Shown here piece by piece: positions 1-11,501 of a DNA stretch of 22,081 nt. Origin of the DNA: a virus; the IMG/VR virus record IMGVR_UViG_3300009132_000044, positions 1 through 22,081 of that record; one strand, 5' to 3'. The notes beneath the pieces are model-generated. The model worked only from the letters and a program-made list of their open reading frames with translations. It was not told where the DNA came from and did no database searches. Each line of letters begins with the position of its first letter. Within the stretch, counting starts at the first letter, position 1. The translations under genes were made by a program, and so were the position numbers.

Positions 1-746
1 GCAGACTTCGCCTTGCGCCCAGTCAGCCAGATGCGCAGAGAATATACATAATGCATAGCCTTTCCGCCTGGAGTGATAAAGGGTGTCGTCATGGCGACGA
101 TGCGTGCGTTCGGACCCTGCGGAATATTAGTCTTTAACTGGTTGAGGACCAGAAACGCAGACTTTGTATTCGCAATCGGGATTGTCAGCTTGGACATTCC
201 CTTGGAAAGAATACGCGCCTTCATTGCCATGGTGGATTGAGGATTGAAGTCCCCTTCCACATCGGACACAGTAGGAGTCAGAGCCAGCGAGTCCCAGATG
301 AACAGGGTTCGTTCGGCACCAGAGGCTAAAACAGCCTCGACAGTCTCTAGAACATGCTCCACTGATTGTGCCTGGACATAGATCAGATTCTCTAAATCAC
401 ATCCGGTTCGTTCTAGGAAACCTGGGTCAATCGCTGACTCTGAATCCATATACACCACGTTCATGCCCATTTTCTGGGCATTTGCAGCGCACTGTGCTGC
501 CATAAAAGATTTACCAGTCGATTCAAGACCAGCAATCTCTGTAAACTTGCCAACGGGAATGCCGGCAAGCTGGCCGCGACAAATGATAGAATCCAACCAG
601 CGCGAGCCAGTGGGAATCCATTCTGTAACTTCTGTAGGATTTGCTTCCTTCAGGTTATGGGCGACTTCCACACCCGAAGTTTTGTTGATTAGACTGCGCA
701 GGCCATCAATTGAAATCTTGCCTGCTTTTGATTTACTCTTTGCCAC
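1..746 (-). CDS. uvsX: RecA/UvsX-family recombinase (3' end beyond window)
   Basis: ATP-dependent strand-exchange recombinase that would act on ssDNA in phage recombination and recombination-dependent replication. The visible 248 residues form a RecA core: Walker A GLESTGKS at residues 73-80, the DSES stretch with the likely catalytic Glu near 103, Walker B around 147-153 (TLFIWDS), the LNQLK stretch at 201-205 matching the RecA Gln switch region, and PGGKAMHY near 226-233 matching the TGGNAL region of RecA. The start is GTG at 744-746, preceded by GGAG at a good distance; the frame has a stop upstream with no ATG between. The start overlaps the end of the small membrane protein gene before it. 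The C-terminus runs off the left edge. UvsX rather than cellular RecA is inferred from the phage context, with a gp32-like SSB 1.5 kb upstream. Confidence 0.93.
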   Translation of the reverse strand, partial: MAKSKSKAGKISIDGLRSLINKTSGVEVAHNLKEANPTEVTEWIPTGSRWLDSIICRGQLAGIPVGKFTEIAGLESTGKSFMAAQCAANAQKMGMNVVYMDSESAIDPGFLERTGCDLENLIYVQAQSVEHVLETVEAVLASGAERTLFIWDSLALTPTVSDVEGDFNPQSTMAMKARILSKGMSKLTIPIANTKSAFLVLNQLKTNIPQGPNARIVAMTTPFITPGGKAMHYVYSLRIWLTGRKAKS

Positions 747-1198: not shown

Positions 1199-1417
1199 CT
1201 AAAAATCTTGTTCTGTTATGACCAAACATCCTTCGTTGATCAATCGTTCATAATGACTATGATACCCTAATTCGGACACCGTGTCAAGTACTATTTTTCT
1301 CATAATCTCAGATTTACCGGTGATGACACGAACGGGAAGTTCGTTGTTATACACAAAGGTGTGGATCTTCTGAACAACCCCCTCGTGCCGCTCACCGTGT
1401 AAATCCAAGGTTTTCAT
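1199..1417 (-). CDS. Mini Smr-domain-like protein (72 aa)
   Basis: The protein is essentially one small MutS-related (Smr)-type domain. It carries the LDLHG motif at residues 4-8 with a following His at 11, and an ITGKS loop at 32-36 in the place of the usual TGxG loop, followed by the helix IMRKIVLDTVSELG and a C-terminal strand GCLVIT. Smr domains are nucleic-acid nicking or RNA-cleaving/binding modules; the loop here is TGKS rather than TGHG, so activity is uncertain. The ATG overlaps the TAA stop of the upstream gene by one base (TAATG), indicating translational coupling. Family membership is inferred from motif order and size. Confidence 0.72.
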   Translation of the reverse strand: MKTLDLHGERHEGVVQKIHTFVYNNELPVRVITGKSEIMRKIVLDTVSELGYHSHYERLINEGCLVITEQDF

Positions 1418-1947
1418 TAGTTGAGAGTGAGGGTTCCAGCCTTTGTCTTGACGGAAACATTAAATCCCGACACAAAGGAATCAGCCGAGAAAAACTCAAA
1501 ACGACCTTCCTTGCTCTCGTTGGCAGCAATCAGATCACCTGCTCGGACACGAACCTCGGTTGAGATGTCGCAACGTCCGCGCTTGTAATCATACTGGGTA
1601 GTGGAATACTCAAGCGAATACTCGCCATCATAAATCGTCTCGGCCAGCTTCTCCTGGATATAATCCTCAAAGCCAAAGTCGCCGCGATCATAGTCGTCCA
1701 GCATGTCATTGGCACGCATGTCGTTAAGGATATCATTCCCCTCGGACACTTCGCCGTAAGTGCTGTATACCGGCACTGGCGAAACCAGCAATCCGGCGAG
1801 CATACTGGCGGTACCAGTCTCTCCCACGCTTTCCTGCACGTGGCTCTCGTTAATGTGCCAAACGTCGGCACCTTCACTGTAGCTGAGGGTTACAACGTCG
1901 TCCTCAGAAACATTTAGTTCTCTCAATGTATTTACGATATCACTCAT
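1417..1947 (-). CDS. Acidic protein of unknown function (176 aa)
   Basis: No family is recognised. The 176-residue product is acidic, especially in the middle (NDMRANDMLDDYDRGDFGFE, about 75-97), and has alternating polar/hydrophobic stretches towards the C-terminus that look like beta strands (VSVKTKAGTLTLN). There is no signal peptide or membrane segment. The ATG is preceded by AGGGAGAT at a normal distance. It lies between the histone-like gene and the Smr-like gene, and the shared hairpin element precedes it, so it is probably expressed with the SSB and histone-like genes. A role in DNA metabolism is only a guess from position. Confidence 0.8.
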   Translation of the reverse strand: MSDIVNTLRELNVSEDDVVTLSYSEGADVWHINESHVQESVGETGTASMLAGLLVSPVPVYSTYGEVSEGNDILNDMRANDMLDDYDRGDFGFEDYIQEKLAETIYDGEYSLEYSTTQYDYKRGRCDISTEVRVRAGDLIAANESKEGRFEFFSADSFVSGFNVSVKTKAGTLTLN

Positions 1948-1973: not shown

Positions 1974-1997
1974 GAGACCCCTGTATCCCCGGGCCTC
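1974..1997 (-). promoter_or_regulatory. Intergenic hairpin copy 2 (behind the histone-like gene)
   Basis: On the minus strand GAGGCCC pairs with GGGTCTC across a ten-base loop, giving a 7-bp stem with one G-U pair. It begins 16 bases after the histone-like stop codon and ends 26 bases before the next ATG. No U-run follows, so it does not look like an intrinsic terminator. The copy behind the SSB gene has the same flanks (CAGG before, AC after) and a compensatory base change. Confidence 0.6.
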
Positions 1998-2013
1998 CCT
2001 GCGGCGGTAGAGT

Positions 2014-2205
2014 CTACCCTGCGTTTTTGGTCTCTTGGACCTCAACGCGAAGCTCTTGAGCGAGCGTCTTAACTTCCTGCATAGCCTTGCGCACGCGAGT
2101 TCCTGCAGCGTTGTTACCGCTGGTGAAGAACTTGTCGTGATCGTCGCGAGTCTCTTCAAGAAGCGTAATCAGCGTCTCAAGTCGGTTCGTTGTCGTAGTA
2201 GTCAT
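2014..2205 (-). CDS. Histone H1 (Hc1)-like small DNA-binding protein (63 aa)
   Basis: After a short Thr-rich start the 63 residues read as the conserved bacterial Hc1-type module: a helix ending DHDKFFTSGNNAAGTRVRK (about 22-40), then MQEVKTLAQELRVEVQETKN. The GNxAAGTRVRK core is the family signature seen in bacterial histone H1-like proteins. It lacks the long Lys/Ala-rich tail of chlamydial Hc1. The likely role is a nucleoid-type DNA-binding or bridging protein acting on phage or host DNA. The start ATG has AAGGAAG eight bases upstream. It lies between the SSB and an unknown acidic protein, with matching hairpins on both sides. The family call is from remembered motif similarity. Confidence 0.75.
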   Translation of the reverse strand: MTTTTTNRLETLITLLEETRDDHDKFFTSGNNAAGTRVRKAMQEVKTLAQELRVEVQETKNAG

Positions 2206-2224
2206 AACTCTTCCTTTCTTTAGT

Positions 2225-2249
2225 GAGGCACCTGATAACCCTGTGCCTC
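2225..2249 (-). promoter_or_regulatory. Intergenic hairpin copy 1 (behind the SSB gene)
   Basis: On the minus strand GAGGCAC pairs perfectly with GTGCCTC over an 11-base loop. It starts 16 bases after the SSB stop and ends 19 bases before the histone-like ATG, leaving that gene's ribosome site free. It is followed by CACTAAAG, not by a U-run. The second copy at 1974-1997 has an A-U to C-G change in the sixth stem pair, which supports a conserved RNA structure. Confidence 0.65.
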
Positions 2250-2265
2250 CCTGTGGGGGGGATAT

Positions 2266-3039: not shown

Positions 3040-3068
3040 TTTAATCTCCTTTTTGGGTTATAGTACGA

Positions 3069-3935
3069 TCAACTAATCTCTTGATCGTCTAGTAGTTCTG
3101 CATACGATTGTACCACAGATGTGTACCGAATGCAATAACAATATTTTTGTTCATATGTGGTCTTAAAGACTCCATAAGAAACATTCAAGGCGTCATCGAC
3201 GCGCGACTTTACAAAGTTATTAATCTTTCTAAACAGTGTGCCGTCGTTCTTCAAATCATCCTCGCTAATACCATAATAGTATACCACATCTCGAACTCCT
3301 GTCAAGGGGTAAAACCATTTTTCTGTGTGATTTCTCTCATCCTCGTCCGTAATATCAACAATACCTACGGTTGCAATCCTGCTTGTGTTGGCCGGGTGGA
3401 TGAAATTGCCAATTACGGGCTCTGTGTGCTTAAAAACATTAATCATGTGGATAGTATTCACAATTGCCTGATTAAGTGTATCGTAATATCCAATGATGGA
3501 CATGTCGCCGATGCTGTGCTCCAGAGCGCTGTTGCTTACCATAATCACACTCTCAATAATACCAGAGCGAGCGTACTCTTGCAAGACATTTCTAACAATC
3601 TTTTCCTGCTTCTTCTGAACCTCTGACATAATGGCGGTGTCGCCCTGAATGTAAATCACTGTCAGCCTATTCTTGTTCAGCTGCTCCAGCAGGCGCAGCG
3701 AGCCTCCAGAGATCTGTCCGGATCCCGCAATGATGACACTAACGTCCTCGTTGCTGAATTTTAGTTTCCTACGGAGGTTGGGGAAGTTTTCATCATAGTC
3801 CTCGTGGCTGGACTTCTTTCGGATTGTAATATCCGCTGATTCATCTGTATCAATCCCAAATGTCTCATACTGGGGGAATTTGGAGAATGCTTTGGCAATA
3901 TTGCAACCAGCTTTGCCTAGACCTACCACTATCAT
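3069..3935 (-). CDS. Divergent tubulin/FtsZ-fold protein (288 aa)
   Basis: The N-terminal half follows the layout of FtsZ/TubZ GTPases. Residues 1-12 (MIVVGLGKAGCN) match beta-1 and the T1 loop; 26-32 (FGIDTDE) match the NTD-type T2 region; 66-80 (SVIIAGSGQISGGSL) sit where the tubulin signature GGGTGSG loop and helix H4 belong; 91-97 is a strand; 131-138 (IMVSNSAL) matches the IPND-type stretch; and 150-168 (YYDTLNQAIVNTIHMINVF) matches helix H7. The signature loop is degenerate and no NxDxxD synergy loop is evident, so GTPase and polymerisation are uncertain. The tail is acidic. It overlaps the pyrophosphohydrolase gene by four bases. An alternative is another Rossmann-like nucleotide-binding protein. 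Confidence 0.6.
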   Translation of the reverse strand: MIVVGLGKAGCNIAKAFSKFPQYETFGIDTDESADITIRKKSSHEDYDENFPNLRRKLKFSNEDVSVIIAGSGQISGGSLRLLEQLNKNRLTVIYIQGDTAIMSEVQKKQEKIVRNVLQEYARSGIIESVIMVSNSALEHSIGDMSIIGYYDTLNQAIVNTIHMINVFKHTEPVIGNFIHPANTSRIATVGIVDITDEDERNHTEKWFYPLTGVRDVVYYYGISEDDLKNDGTLFRKINNFVKSRVDDALNVSYGVFKTTYEQKYCYCIRYTSVVQSYAELLDDQEIS

Positions 3936-6734: not shown

Positions 6735-9700
6735 TTAGTCCTTCCCGACTTCGTGCCACCAGCCCAGCAACTGTCCGCGCCAGCCCGATCCGTAAATTCG
6801 TTCGCGCTCTAGCTCAACTTCGGCTTGGTGGCGCGAGGCTGCATCCGTTGGATCATCTGCGCGCGCATCGACGCGAGCTTGGTGGCGAGCGGCGGCAATT
6901 CGACGATTGTCGCGCGCGGGGTTTCTTTCAGGAGGGGGAGTTTCCCCAATGACATTAAGCATGGTAAGTGAGTTATCGGGCTGAGCAAACTCGATGGCTT
7001 GATGAAGCGCGTCGATATTAGTATCAAATCCGTCTGGAGTGAGTTTAGATCTTACCCCAGTCACTAGATAGTAGCCGTGAAGTCCGAGATAATCAAGCTG
7101 TTGAGTATCGGCGTCTAATAAGGTTGGGTTAATATAGATATACATGCCATTCTTATATAGATTATTTCCCACTAAATCTAAATTCGCTGAGTAGAGTTCT
7201 CGGAGCTGCTCGGCACCTAGGGCGCCTTCTCGTTGGATCTTAGCTTCTCGCAAGAGGGGCTGGTCTTCTCGGGAGAATTTGAGCGTTTTGAGGAGTCCGC
7301 ATGATGCTCCAATATAATGATGGTAAATACCGCGGTTAAAGTCGGCATCATAGTCTCCTCGGAGATTCCTGGGGCGCCCGTCTGTTGGTAACAACACAAG
7401 TCCTTGGCGGACATGAGATGTGGGAGTAGAGGGAAGAATATCGCTCCGGCGAGCCAATTCCGTAACCTTGGATTCACTAGTTACTTCAAACCAGGATGGT
7501 CCTGAGTTGGTGTCGTCCTGATATGCTACGGGCTGGGCATCAAAGCGTTGTTGTAATGTGAGGTCGAGCCCAAAACAAGCTTTTCCTAGGGCACGTGTGA
7601 CCAGCTCTGCACAAAGTTGTTTAATGAAGTAAAGAAAATAATATGTGGGCCTCATTGGCTTCACCACTTTATTTTTAAAAAACAGCTGGAATGCGTCAAG
7701 GGAAATAGGAATGTCTCCAATATTCATGATATTACTAAACTGATTGGCCGTACTAAATGTCTCCGGATCGCTAGCTATCAACTGCTGCATAAACTGAGCA
7801 TCATTAAGGTTGCCGCAGAGGAGTTCCTCTTCTAGGTCTTTTGCTTGAAATGCTACGAGAGGGTTAATGACATCAACATCCGATAAGAACATATCAAAAT
7901 GAATTTTTTCGCCTCCGTTGTTTTTTTTCATTTGCTCTATAACATTATCAATCAAGTCGCCCAAATAAAAGAAAGGAATTGCTGTGGTATCTGAAGAGTT
8001 GCTAATTTGATCATATCGTGCTGTCTCATTTTCGGAATATTCTTCTGCGGCATTTGCTTCACTGTCATTTTCGGCGTTTCTGATAGCCTCCAATAGTGTC
8101 AGAGTATGTCGGCCGGCGTCAGCGAATTCCAAGGTACCAGTGTTAGGATTCAGGCGCCTTTTTGCGCGAGCGGCTCGTTGTTCTTCGGTTAGTTTGTGCC
8201 AAGGGGTAAGCTGAAATTCACGGGGATCTACCATGAGATAATGAATCTTTGAGTTCGAAGGTTGTGTGAGTTCTTCAAGAAGTTTTCTATACTTAACCAA
8301 CTGGTTTTGTTGTCGTAAGCGCTTCTTCTCTTCTAGCAGCTCTAAGCGCCGTTCGTTTTGCGTACTTGTTCGGTTATCAGCACCGAGATCGTCGATCTCC
8401 TCCAGTTCTTCGTCGATATCTCTGAGTAAATCTTTATGGGATGCGATATCTTGCGCAAAAATGTCTGCCTTAGGCGACGTCAGAAGTCCCGCTATTCCCG
8501 CTTGGTAGTCTATCGTTAGTTCCAGAGAGCCATCCTCATTAAAATTCAAATTATGGCGTACCTGAGTCAAATAGAGAGATACTTTGGTCTGCTCTATAGC
8601 CCAACTGAGGGCTGTTGCGTCTATATTAGAGCCCGGGGCTACCCAATCCTCCAAATTCTGTGGAGCTGACCAGCCAGCAACCACTTTAAGTCGATATTCC
8701 CTACCTTCATAGAGTCTATGCTTATGCTTGGATACTCCGTCGCAAACGGATTCATTCGACCCTAAGGTGCGCTCGCGTTGATCTTCTTTCCTTTTGGCTG
8801 ATGGGGAATTAATCAGTAAATCCAAAAAGTTGGGCTCTTTATCGCCGGCTTGAGAGGCTCCGCGAAAGAAATCATTGATGCTTTGAAAATAAATAACCAG
8901 TTCAGCAGTTATATTATTATCCACTTCTTCAGGCTGAACTCCCTCTAAGGACCAGGAAAAAGATTTAATGCCTGCGCCAGGAATGCGTCCTCGTGAGCCG
9001 TCTAGGATAGCAGCGACATCGGCGGGATCGACAAAGTTGGGGATCATTAACTCATTCTCGATCGGGAGTCGAGTGTCTGGATCTATTTTGGGGGAACCGT
9101 CCTTATTATACTCAACACGATATATTTTTATAGACGGTACCAGTGCAGCATACACATCCGGGCAGAGGCTTAAGATCTCCTTGATCCGTGCGGCGCGAGA
9201 GCTTTGCGGGGAGCCATGATTGAGTATGTTGGGGGTTACTGCGGGTGCGTGGGTCGCGGAGCGCAACTTCATTGTATGCTGGTAGTCTGCCAAAAAGGCG
9301 GGGATGGTCGTTCGGGCGGCAGCTAATTCTTCAATGTTTTCCATTAAATAACATTGCATGTCGAAGGGCGTGAGGTTCCGTGCCAGTCCGGCGAGAACTT
9401 CCTGGAGATCTCTAAGTGAATCTCCCCGGAGGTCAGCGAGCCGCGGCGCCAGGGGGCGATCAGGGAGGGGATCGTCGGGGGCTACTACACCAAAAAAGTT
9501 CAAAATAGCGTCAAACTCTTTCTGCACTCCCGCCTCGTATTCGGGAGTGCCGGGCGCCGGGAAGGGGACCGACTCAGACTCGAAGATGGGCTGCAGGAGA
9601 GAATCATAGTCCTGGAGGCGTTGGGGGGCCATAACTGCATCTATGTGCTGCCTCACAAGCGTCTTCAAAGGGGGTGCGTGGGTATTGGCATAGAAGATCT

Positions 9701-11501
9701 GCGATCCGGCCTTCCACGCCTGATCCAGCCCGGAGCCGACTAAACTGAATGTTGGGTCGCCTAGAGGCTGGCGAACATCAATGTCTCCGGGCACAGCGCT
9801 CTGTTCGCTCGCAGACATATTAGCCCACGGCTCCATGCGAACGGTTCGGATATCATGAATGATACCGTCCATAATCGAAACCGAGTTCTCCCAATCGGCT
9901 ACAGGGTAGATGGGCCTTCGGCTCGGATTCCCGAGGATGCCGGTCTGGGGGAAAGGTAAGAAACAAGAGGCCGGGTCCGTGCAGTCTTTAAGTTCCGGAA
10001 CGTCTGTGCCATTGTTGGACGTCGCTTCTACGACCGCCAGGCTATCGGCTATAAGCTGACGAGTATCTTGCGCCAAGATAAGTGCTAGTTGTTGGTATGC
10101 TTCTGCTAGGTCAGAGGGAACCGTGGGGGTCGCAAGAGCCGTGGTATTAGTGGTAAGGGCGAGACTGGCGTAGTCGAGGGGAGCGCCGGCATTGGTCAAA
10201 CCGTCCGCCCAAAACTGGTATTGATCTGGGATTTCAAAATGCACGCCGTCGGACTGCAGCGTCAGGGTTCGCGTCAGAGGCACCATATCATAATAAGTCA
10301 ATCCGGTGGTGCTGTTCGCTTTTTCCGCTACCCAATCCCGAACAATCTGCCGTGCGTTTTCATACAATCCATCCGGCTCAGTGACCCAAGAGCGCGTCGC
10401 GGTAGCATATGAGGGTCCTAGCCAGCGAACATCGGATACACCCGCCGCAGTAATAGCGTCCATCCATGCGTCGATAAGCTCGTGGTATCTAGACTTGGTG
10501 AGGTTCCCTTTATAAGCGTCTTCAGAGTCATTGGCGCCAAGTTGTATAACAACAACCGTAGGCTTAAAATTGTCGAGGGCATTCAGAATATCCTGAGAAG
10601 GTTTGTCGCCGGATGAGTGGCTCCGGAGTCCCCAGCCGTTCGTGGAAATGACATATGCCTCGGGTTCGGGTCCGGAAGACCCGCGGTGGTCCCAGTATTC
10701 GTAAAGGTGTGTAGGAATCCATCCTTTGAGTGTGGTTTCTGAAACGCCCTGTCCATTGGGTCCTGCAGGTCCATTGTGGTTACCTGTCTGGCTATCTCCA
10801 ATGAGCAGCATACGGACGCCGGATGAGCCACCAGATGTAGTAGCTGTGGCCGGAGAAGTGGAAGGGGCGCCGGTTGTTTGTGATGTACCCCGGGAAAGTT
10901 GCCATGCTTTGTTATTAAGGTACTGTAAAATAGCTGGGTTTGAAAAGAAGGAGTAGTTAGAGGCGTTCCGCGTGCCGTTCGCGGGGAGTCTGCTGCTCTC
11001 GGGATTGGTGATGTCGGAGACGTAAGGTGTCGTCTCCATAAAAGAATATTTTCGTGTGATGTTTGGTTGAGCAACATAATCAACGCCGGTATCATATTCA
11101 ATATCCTCATCCTGGAACGTGGCGCCCGCAGAGCGCGTACTGAGCATTCTAAACTCCTCCGCCTCGACGCGGTAGTCCTCAAAGACTTCGGGGTCGATGC
11201 CCGTGAGGAGTCCGGCCTGACGGAAGACCGTACGATTGTCTTTAAAGCGTGATAAGTCTCCTAGTGCTGCTTCGGCTTGCGTTTTATTCACCACCAAGTC
11301 GTTGGTGGCAGCTTTGATCACATTCCTATGATCGTAATATCCCGCGTCGAATTCACTGGCTTGTCCGGTTCCCACAAACTTATCATAAGCGATCTGGGCA
11401 AACATCGATTTTTGATAGTTGCGGAGCAATTCCCTGAAGGCTTCTTTGACTTCATAGGTGATTATTGATGTTGTAGGGGGTGCTGAACTAGTGGGGGGCA
11501 T
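6735..11501 (-). CDS. Giant baseplate hub protein with an SGNH/GDSL hydrolase domain (1588 aa)
   Basis: A multidomain structural protein. Residues 1-200 are an N-terminal domain. A Ser/Thr/Gly-rich linker (205-228) leads to a complete SGNH hydrolase: GDS at 235-237 (nucleophile Ser237), an oxyanion Gly near 289-291, GAND at 322-325 and DGVH at 418-421 (catalytic Asp418 and His421). Residues 450-840 are unassigned. KSFSWSLEGVQPEE at 846-859, followed by a strand-rich region to about 1005, resembles the hub scaffold of other marine-type phages. A charged coiled coil spans about 1017-1080. The C-terminal 60 residues are very basic/acidic (ARHQARVDARADD). Embedded position suggests that the hydrolase cuts an ester in the cell envelope or capsule during entry. 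T4 gp27 plus gp5 is the nearest functional comparison. Confidence 0.8.
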   Translation of the reverse strand: MPPTSSAPPTTSIITYEVKEAFRELLRNYQKSMFAQIAYDKFVGTGQASEFDAGYYDHRNVIKAATNDLVVNKTQAEAALGDLSRFKDNRTVFRQAGLLTGIDPEVFEDYRVEAEEFRMLSTRSAGATFQDEDIEYDTGVDYVAQPNITRKYSFMETTPYVSDITNPESSRLPANGTRNASNYSFFSNPAILQYLNNKAWQLSRGTSQTTGAPSTSPATATTSGGSSGVRMLLIGDSQTGNHNGPAGPNGQGVSETTLKGWIPTHLYEYWDHRGSSGPEPEAYVISTNGWGLRSHSSGDKPSQDILNALDNFKPTVVVIQLGANDSEDAYKGNLTKSRYHELIDAWMDAITAAGVSDVRWLGPSYATATRSWVTEPDGLYENARQIVRDWVAEKANSTTGLTYYDMVPLTRTLTLQSDGVHFEIPDQYQFWADGLTNAGAPLDYASLALTTNTTALATPTVPSDLAEAYQQLALILAQDTRQLIADSLAVVEATSNNGTDVPELKDCTDPASCFLPFPQTGILGNPSRRPIYPVADWENSVSIMDGIIHDIRTVRMEPWANMSASEQSAVPGDIDVRQPLGDPTFSLVGSGLDQAWKAGSQIFYANTHAPPLKTLVRQHIDAVMAPQRLQDYDSLLQPIFESESVPFPAPGTPEYEAGVQKEFDAILNFFGVVAPDDPLPDRPLAPRLADLRGDSLRDLQEVLAGLARNLTPFDMQCYLMENIEELAAARTTIPAFLADYQHTMKLRSATHAPAVTPNILNHGSPQSSRAARIKEILSLCPDVYAALVPSIKIYRVEYNKDGSPKIDPDTRLPIENELMIPNFVDPADVAAILDGSRGRIPGAGIKSFSWSLEGVQPEEVDNNITAELVIYFQSINDFFRGASQAGDKEPNFLDLLINSPSAKRKEDQRERTLGSNESVCDGVSKHKHRLYEGREYRLKVVAGWSAPQNLEDWVAPGSNIDATALSWAIEQTKVSLYLTQVRHNLNFNEDGSLELTIDYQAGIAGLLTSPKADIFAQDIASHKDLLRDIDEELEEIDDLGADNRTSTQNERRLELLEEKKRLRQQNQLVKYRKLLEELTQPSNSKIHYLMVDPREFQLTPWHKLTEEQRAARAKRRLNPNTGTLEFADAGRHTLTLLEAIRNAENDSEANAAEEYSENETARYDQISNSSDTTAIPFFYLGDLIDNVIEQMKKNNGGEKIHFDMFLSDVDVINPLVAFQAKDLEEELLCGNLNDAQFMQQLIASDPETFSTANQFSNIMNIGDIPISLDAFQLFFKNKVVKPMRPTYYFLYFIKQLCAELVTRALGKACFGLDLTLQQRFDAQPVAYQDDTNSGPSWFEVTSESKVTELARRSDILPSTPTSHVRQGLVLLPTDGRPRNLRGDYDADFNRGIYHHYIGASCGLLKTLKFSREDQPLLREAKIQREGALGAEQLRELYSANLDLVGNNLYKNGMYIYINPTLLDADTQQLDYLGLHGYYLVTGVRSKLTPDGFDTNIDALHQAIEFAQPDNSLTMLNVIGETPPPERNPARDNRRIAAARHQARVDARADDPTDAASRHQAEVELERERIYGSGWRGQLLGWWHEVGKD

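Follow-up and report, generated by a model that had tools for sequence, protein, structure and literature searches.

Two short, matching hairpins lie on either side of a small histone-like gene in the virus record IMGVR_UViG_3300009132_000044, of which positions 1 to 22,081 (22,081 nt, hereafter the window) were analysed. The question raised by this locus is what structure these hairpins belong to and which of the adjoining genes they serve. An earlier note, made from the letters alone, had described both, and they were found again on the minus strand at 2249-2225 (GAGGCAC-AGGGTTATCAG-GTGCCTC) and 1997-1974 (GAGGCCC-GGGGATACAG-GGGTCTC). As it had claimed, the stems begin 16 nt past the TAA of ssb (2268-2266) and 16 nt past the TAG (2016-2014) of the Hc1 histone-like gene, and both copies have CAGG upstream, the loop bases GGG, TA and CAG, and AC downstream. 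The minus-strand order is ssb, TAA, 8 nt, first element, Hc1 gene, TAG, 8 nt, second element; a 176-aa gene with no match in Pfam or PHROG, a 72-aa gene and uvsX follow, the last of these marking the downstream boundary of the copy-bearing region (Table 1).

Either hairpin alone has a folding energy of -13.4 kcal/mol, with z-scores against dinucleotide shuffles of -3.6 (copy 1) and -3.3 (copy 2). With 15-20 nt of flank these scores are weak (-0.8 and -0.9, respectively), so that folding energy alone is not decisive and the evidence had to come from relatives.

Table 1. Features of the ssb-uvsX region of the window, numbered on the window; paired segments are given 5' to 3' on the minus strand.
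Feature	Position	Strand	Basis or remark
ssb, gp32-type single-strand DNA-binding protein, 257 aa	2266..3039	-	phrog_1192 E=1e-22, phrog_224 E=2e-5
Second conserved RNA element, ssb leader	3055..3088	-	stem ACGAUCAA/UUGAUCGU, tail ACUAUAACCC
Loop of the ssb leader hairpin, GAGAUUAG	3080-3073	-	41 nt before the ssb AUG
Spacer, ssb stop codon to pseudoknot, 8 nt	2258..2265	-	family mode 7-9 nt
Copy 1, complete H-type pseudoknot behind ssb	2225..2257	-	coordinates, covariation, conservation
Copy 1, S1	CCC 2257-2255 with GGG 2241-2239	-	
Copy 1, L1	ACAGG 2254-2250	-	
Copy 1, S2	GAGGCAC 2249-2243 with GTGCCTC 2231-2225	-	
Copy 1, L3	UUAUCAG 2238-2232	-	
Histone H1-like (Hc1) gene, 63 aa, between both copies	2014..2205	-	Pfam PF07432 E=4e-21
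Spacer, histone-like stop codon to copy 2, 8 nt	2006..2013	-	
Copy 2, behind the histone-like gene	1974..2005	-	
Copy 2, S1	CC 2004-2003 with GG 1989-1988	-	third position G2005/G1987 unpaired
Copy 2, L1	GCAGG 2002-1998	-	
Copy 2, S2	GAGGCCC 1997-1991 with GGGUCUC 1980-1974	-	
Copy 2, L3	AUACAG 1986-1981	-	
176-aa gene downstream of copy 2	1417..1947	-	in most cases not followed by a copy
uvsX/RecA-like recombinase, cut by the window end	3..746	-	phrog_97 E=1e-46

Structure of the element

Comparison with relatives makes it very likely that the element, here called M, is an H-type RNA pseudoknot, of which each reported hairpin is only one stem. Its consensus is x-C-C / R-C-A-G-G / 7-bp S2 / (A or G) G G x' / N-N-A-(U)-C-A-G / S2, where the upstream CC pairs with the loop GG and the base x before CC pairs with the fourth loop base, x', to form S1. 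The C-G pairs of S1 are invariant and hence uninformative by themselves; it is the x-x' pair that backs this stem by covariation. This pairing, which entered no search pattern and no filter, is formed in 103 of 115 distinct sequences (C-G 58, A-U 23, U-G 11, U-A 6, G-C 5), compared with a mean of 60.5 and a maximum of 78 in 10,000 shuffles. It is also formed in 225 of the 227 ssb-linked copies, with at least 34 changes of pair state on the tree of the 227 SSB proteins. In contrasts across well-supported branches, x and x' never move oppositely and move together in 5.3 of 6.

The second stem tells the same story for the two window copies in part only: the compensatory changes announced by the earlier note are real for pair 6 (A-U or C-G, both sides changed), but pair 4 (G-C or G-U) changes on one side. 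Across the family, pairs 1, 2, 6 and 7 show changes on both sides. Percentages of S2 pairing are inflated because the finders demanded most of these pairs; the anchored census, however, demanded only four of the seven and found S2 perfect in 36 of 36 distinct ssb-linked copies. In these, G-U pairs are frequent and A-C absent, which points to the sense strand and hence to RNA.

Three further features, namely R before CAGG, the first loop base and the length of L3, switch jointly between two types. Among ssb-linked copies, 144 are of the G/G/short type, 81 of the A/A/long type and two are A/A/short; in independent contrasts, R agrees with the first loop base in 11 of 11 cases and with L3 length in 10 of 11. 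The joint switch suits a base triple, and could also arise through conversion of whole copies by a neighbouring copy. Copy 1 of the window is of the A type and complete, with all three S1 pairs. Copy 2 is of the G type and has two C-G pairs and a G/G mismatch at x-x' (2005/1987); its class, GCCGC...GGGGATACAG, was found again in related loci. Two variations on the fold were observed besides: two pseudoknots in direct tandem in one intergenic gap in L110 and L166 (behind small genes, behind ssb), and an extra stretch inserted in the pseudoknot loop in L520, L183 and L434.

Distribution and genomic position

IMG/VR was searched with the SSB protein, which gave 80 loci at 72-95% identity, and a later profile search added more. 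For the conservation census, loci were picked by the SSB protein alone, regardless of M. At SSB identities of at least 80%, 55 of 56 loci have M immediately behind ssb or behind the ORF that follows it; M is present in 15 of 16 loci at 70-80%, in 13 of 22 at 60-70% and in 6 of 16 below 60%. In total, at least 460 distinct copies were detected in uncultured, mostly marine, tailed phages, all copy counts being lower bounds that depend on the motif patterns. Copies are thus present in relatives with their stems preserved, and the proposal of a conserved RNA structure common to several genes is strongly supported. A blastn search of named phage records with the 35-nt consensus returned no copy; in Microcystis phage Mel-JY01 and the Flavobacterium immuto phage, ssb and recA almost touch and M is absent.

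Among the distinct copies of M, ssb lies upstream of at least 248 and downstream of one, while uvsX lies downstream of at least 91 and upstream of one. In the remaining copies the preceding gene is small and of histone-like, cold-shock, FKBP-type or unknown kind, and most of these copies fall within the ssb-uvsX interval. In the 33 contigs that measure 48-293 kb, one to four convincing copies were counted per contig, mostly gathered in a single cluster. Where at least 1.5 kb of upstream sequence was available, 223 of 232 locus/strand sets include ssb. One of the nine others, an Oscillospiraceae contig (L433) without the array and the neighbouring genes, is apparently a chance match; in the other eight, M adjoins different small genes, on their downstream or upstream side, and most of these genes belong to the same families. 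A loose search also gave antisense matches and matches upstream of ssb, all of which were set aside as chance.

M begins a median of 8 nt (IQR 7-11) after the stop codon, mostly 7-9 nt after ssb, and the next start codon follows 22-31 nt (IQR) further on; many copies have A-rich RNA on their 3' side. Behind ssb-M, 46 classes of downstream gene were counted, unclassified included, and uvsX follows directly in 54 copies. In four loci (L363, L386, L112 and L181), a tRNA gene begins 7-10 nt after M.

The interval between ssb and uvsX (746-2266 in the window; L003-L537) is itself a hot spot where the small genes vary, and many of them have a pseudoknot of their own. They encode Hc1 histone-like proteins, an FKBP-type isomerase, a cold-shock protein, a D12-class adenine methyltransferase, and HNH-like and small acidic lipoprotein-like proteins. 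In L181, L190 and L434, arrays of such cassette genes (histone-like, cold-shock), each followed by a pseudoknot, occur with no ssb nearby, which suggests that gene and element move together.

Relation to intrinsic terminators

The hairpins had been described as lacking a U-run and as being something other than terminators. Both statements hold literally for the window copies, whose GC-rich stems are trailed by ACUAAAG and ACAUUAU rather than directly by a U-tract. They do not extend to the family. Indeed, TTTT occurs within 14 nt of 86 of 178 copies from distant relatives, whereas in the clade of the window, with SSB identities of 70% or more, only 4 of 68 ssb-linked copies have it. In the distant copies, the frequency of T is 0.5-0.7 at +4 to +7 (0.54-0.73 at +4 and +5) and about 0.2 further on, so that the family as a whole is terminator-like, its distant members having U-rich sequence from +4 to +8. 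The slot itself is shared: seven SSB relatives without M, at about 60% SSB identity, carry a canonical terminator hairpin and U-run in its place (L515, L519, L521, L531, L532, L534 and L536). Several other M-less relatives have neither M nor a terminator.

Like a rho-independent terminator, M is a GC-rich hairpin just past a stop codon, in a slot occupied by terminators in sister phages, and it carries a U-rich tail in distant members. It differs in being pseudoknotted, with a long and conserved loop, in its conserved A at +1, and in a U-tract shifted to about +4 and missing from the window; moreover, the tRNA genes 7-10 nt past M imply read-through. The family therefore looks like a pseudoknotted analogue of terminators, of which the branch of the window has kept the fold without the U-tract.

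Two strong sigma-70-like promoter matches (11/12) were also noted on the minus strand of the window, one at 3278-3305, before ssb and within the preceding gene, the other at 1259-1287, between the ssb operon and uvsX. They suggest that uvsX is transcribed separately in the window.

A proposed role at the 3' end of the preceding gene

Three observations suggest that M acts on the 3' end of the gene before it. The association of ssb with M is kept while the following genes vary over dozens of classes. Seven M-less relatives have a terminator in the same slot. Where a tRNA gene starts 7-10 nt after M, neither a promoter nor a ribosome-binding site would fit in between, and the RNA must be read through and processed, with M left at the new end. 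In general, M is thus neither a translational operator of the next gene nor a complete terminator. For the shared control site envisaged in the earlier note, processing or stability remains the best reading, while translational control of the next gene is weakened by these four tRNA loci.

On this basis it is tentatively proposed, at somewhat short of an even chance, that M is a pseudoknotted 3'-end element, both barrier and attenuator, for the mRNAs of ssb and its neighbours. Placed just past the ribosome at the stop codon, M would fold undisturbed by translation. The barrier would mark and protect the 3' ends of ssb and the neighbouring small genes from 3'-to-5' degradation after processing downstream. 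In lineages with a U-rich tail, M probably also attenuates transcription, as the terminators of sister phages do in the same slot, and one operon would yield more SSB than downstream products. The barrier and attenuation activities, and the dose effect with them, are predicted with the same slightly less than even confidence. A barrier to 3'-to-5' decay with optional attenuation would be the simplest common denominator of the family.

Four points count against this proposal. The window copies and nearly all of their clade are without a U-tract. An element that stabilised messages in general should also accompany other strongly expressed genes, but the 33 contigs have only one to four convincing copies each, mostly clustered. 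The strict loop (RCAGG, AG) exceeds the needs of a plain barrier, which base triples could explain. Finally, several M-less relatives have no terminator in the slot either.

The ssb leader hairpin and possible binding of SSB

The gp32-type SSB offers a second reading, rather unlikely but serious on account of T4 and RB69. M would be a site of the phage SSB itself, on which excess protein nucleates, then altering the decay of its own message or spreading in the 3' direction across the A-rich ribosome-binding site that serves the next gene (the histone-like protein, UvsX). In T4, T2 and RB69, a pseudoknot in the gene 32 leader is the autogenous translational operator of gp32, and binding of gp32 to this H-type pseudoknot is documented for T4 and RB69 (PMC535899, PMC3014915). 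M, too, is an H-type pseudoknot of compact form, carried by the mRNA for a gp32-type SSB (PHROG 1192 E=1e-22, 224 E=2e-5), with loosely structured A-rich RNA 3' of many copies; an SSB gene adjoins the first copy in at least 248 cases, and most genomes have their copies within a single region. The T4 site, however, precedes gene 32, whereas M follows ssb (at least 248 copies after, one before) and can number up to four copies, some of them behind other genes; its loop sequences are strict, and its binding by SSB is putative. Four loci have a tRNA gene instead of a ribosome-binding site after M, and eight have M without ssb despite at least 1.5 kb of upstream sequence.

In addition, the ssb leader has its own conserved hairpin where an SSB operator is expected. 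Its loop (consensus RANAUUNG) lies 40-46 nt before the AUG in most leaders and is followed by the tail CUNUA(A/G). The hairpin was found in 84 of 96 distinct leaders by a search that imposed no stem requirement; all inner stem pairs are formed, with up to five pair types per position, and the stem is kept by changes on both sides. In a stem-based scan of the loci, the loop-plus-tail form occurred nowhere but upstream of ssb. This hairpin is a better candidate than M for control by SSB, and hence a candidate SSB operator. A combined scheme also appears rather unlikely: M behind ssb and its neighbours would be read by SSB or another replication protein, and free SSB would set the stability or read-through of the ssb-uvsX operon, together with the leader hairpin as a second SSB-responsive element.

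Long-range pairing between the loop of M (GGGUUAU) and the tail of the ssb leader (AUAACCC) was considered and rejected: perfect in the window, it is no better within than between genomes and is reached by 48 of 300 shuffles. Separately, the cysteines of a zinc-binding-like motif are missing from some SSBs of the family (CPKRNFGDDCPVC compared with SPKKNFGEDDPLD), which are nevertheless accompanied by the pseudoknot.

Other readings

The spacing of M, mostly 7-9 nt past the stop and then 22-31 nt (IQR) to the next start, fits ribosome footprints, and M might act on translation as a roadblock, or as a spacer, that separates the ribosome finishing one gene from the one starting the next and so prevents or favours reinitiation. 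This appears improbable, given the tRNA genes behind M in some loci and the exclusion of stop-codon readthrough as a general role. For readthrough into the next gene, as with the MuLV-type pseudoknot, the downstream frame should be open and in phase; next starts fall at random, in frames 0, 1 and 2 in 47, 47 and 52 of 146 cases, and only 17 would allow an open fusion.

The hot spot of small genes between ssb and uvsX, many with their own copy, and the occurrence of these genes, M included, at sites away from ssb (L181, L190 and L434) could instead reflect a homology anchor acting mainly at the DNA level in the exchange of gene cassettes. This appears very unlikely, since what the compensatory changes preserve is the fold rather than the sequence, G-U pairs persist only in the sense strand, and M is maintained in the 54 copies where uvsX directly follows ssb-M.

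Compact H-type pseudoknots that bind small ligands have precedents in the preQ1-I and guanidine-III RNAs. The very strict loop sequences of M and the joint switch of three loop features would fit a riboswitch-like RNA of this kind. Such a role is nevertheless very improbable: M has no Rfam match, its position is tied to the upstream stop codon with the ribosome-binding site outside the fold, and the downstream genes share no common pathway. Sites of the CsrA and RegB types were dismissed because their GGA and GGAG cores are lost in the GGGGGC and GGAAGG variants.

Relation to known RNA families

No Rfam 15 family matches above or near its gathering score at M, and the covariance model of STAXI (RF01728) gave no match at E<=10. 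Both STAXI and M are multi-copy pseudoknots near genes of single-strand DNA-binding proteins, but STAXI units, reported in Enterobacteriales, are arrayed in tandem and have UUCG loops (PMC2864571), whereas M stands as one 33-nt unit after each gene and its phages are mostly marine. A search of the open-access literature retrieved no paper describing M with the terms tried. M is under strong selection and is classed here as a new RNA structure family among the pseudoknots of phage mRNAs and intercistronic 3' elements.

A strictly conserved pseudoknot is fixed 3' of ssb, and a different conserved hairpin 5' of it, across a large group of uncultured phages. M would show how large phages balance the dose of SSB against that of recombination proteins without a canonical terminator. 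It is short and offers clear point mutations for testing, and its covariance model provides a sequence handle with which to locate the ssb-uvsX locus in metagenomes.

Two other proteins of the window deserve mention. The gene preceding ssb (3069-3935, minus strand) encodes 288 aa with an N-terminal GLGKAGCN motif and IIAGSGQISGGS; by eye it recalls FtsZ/tubulin or Rossmann folds, and Pfam gives a weak TrkA_N match only. In the structural gene region, a 1588-aa protein (6735-11501, minus strand) has a GDSL/SGNH-hydrolase-like domain at about residues 230-420 (Pfam PF13472 E=3e-7, just under the cut-off), possibly a polysaccharide-deacylating part of the tail.
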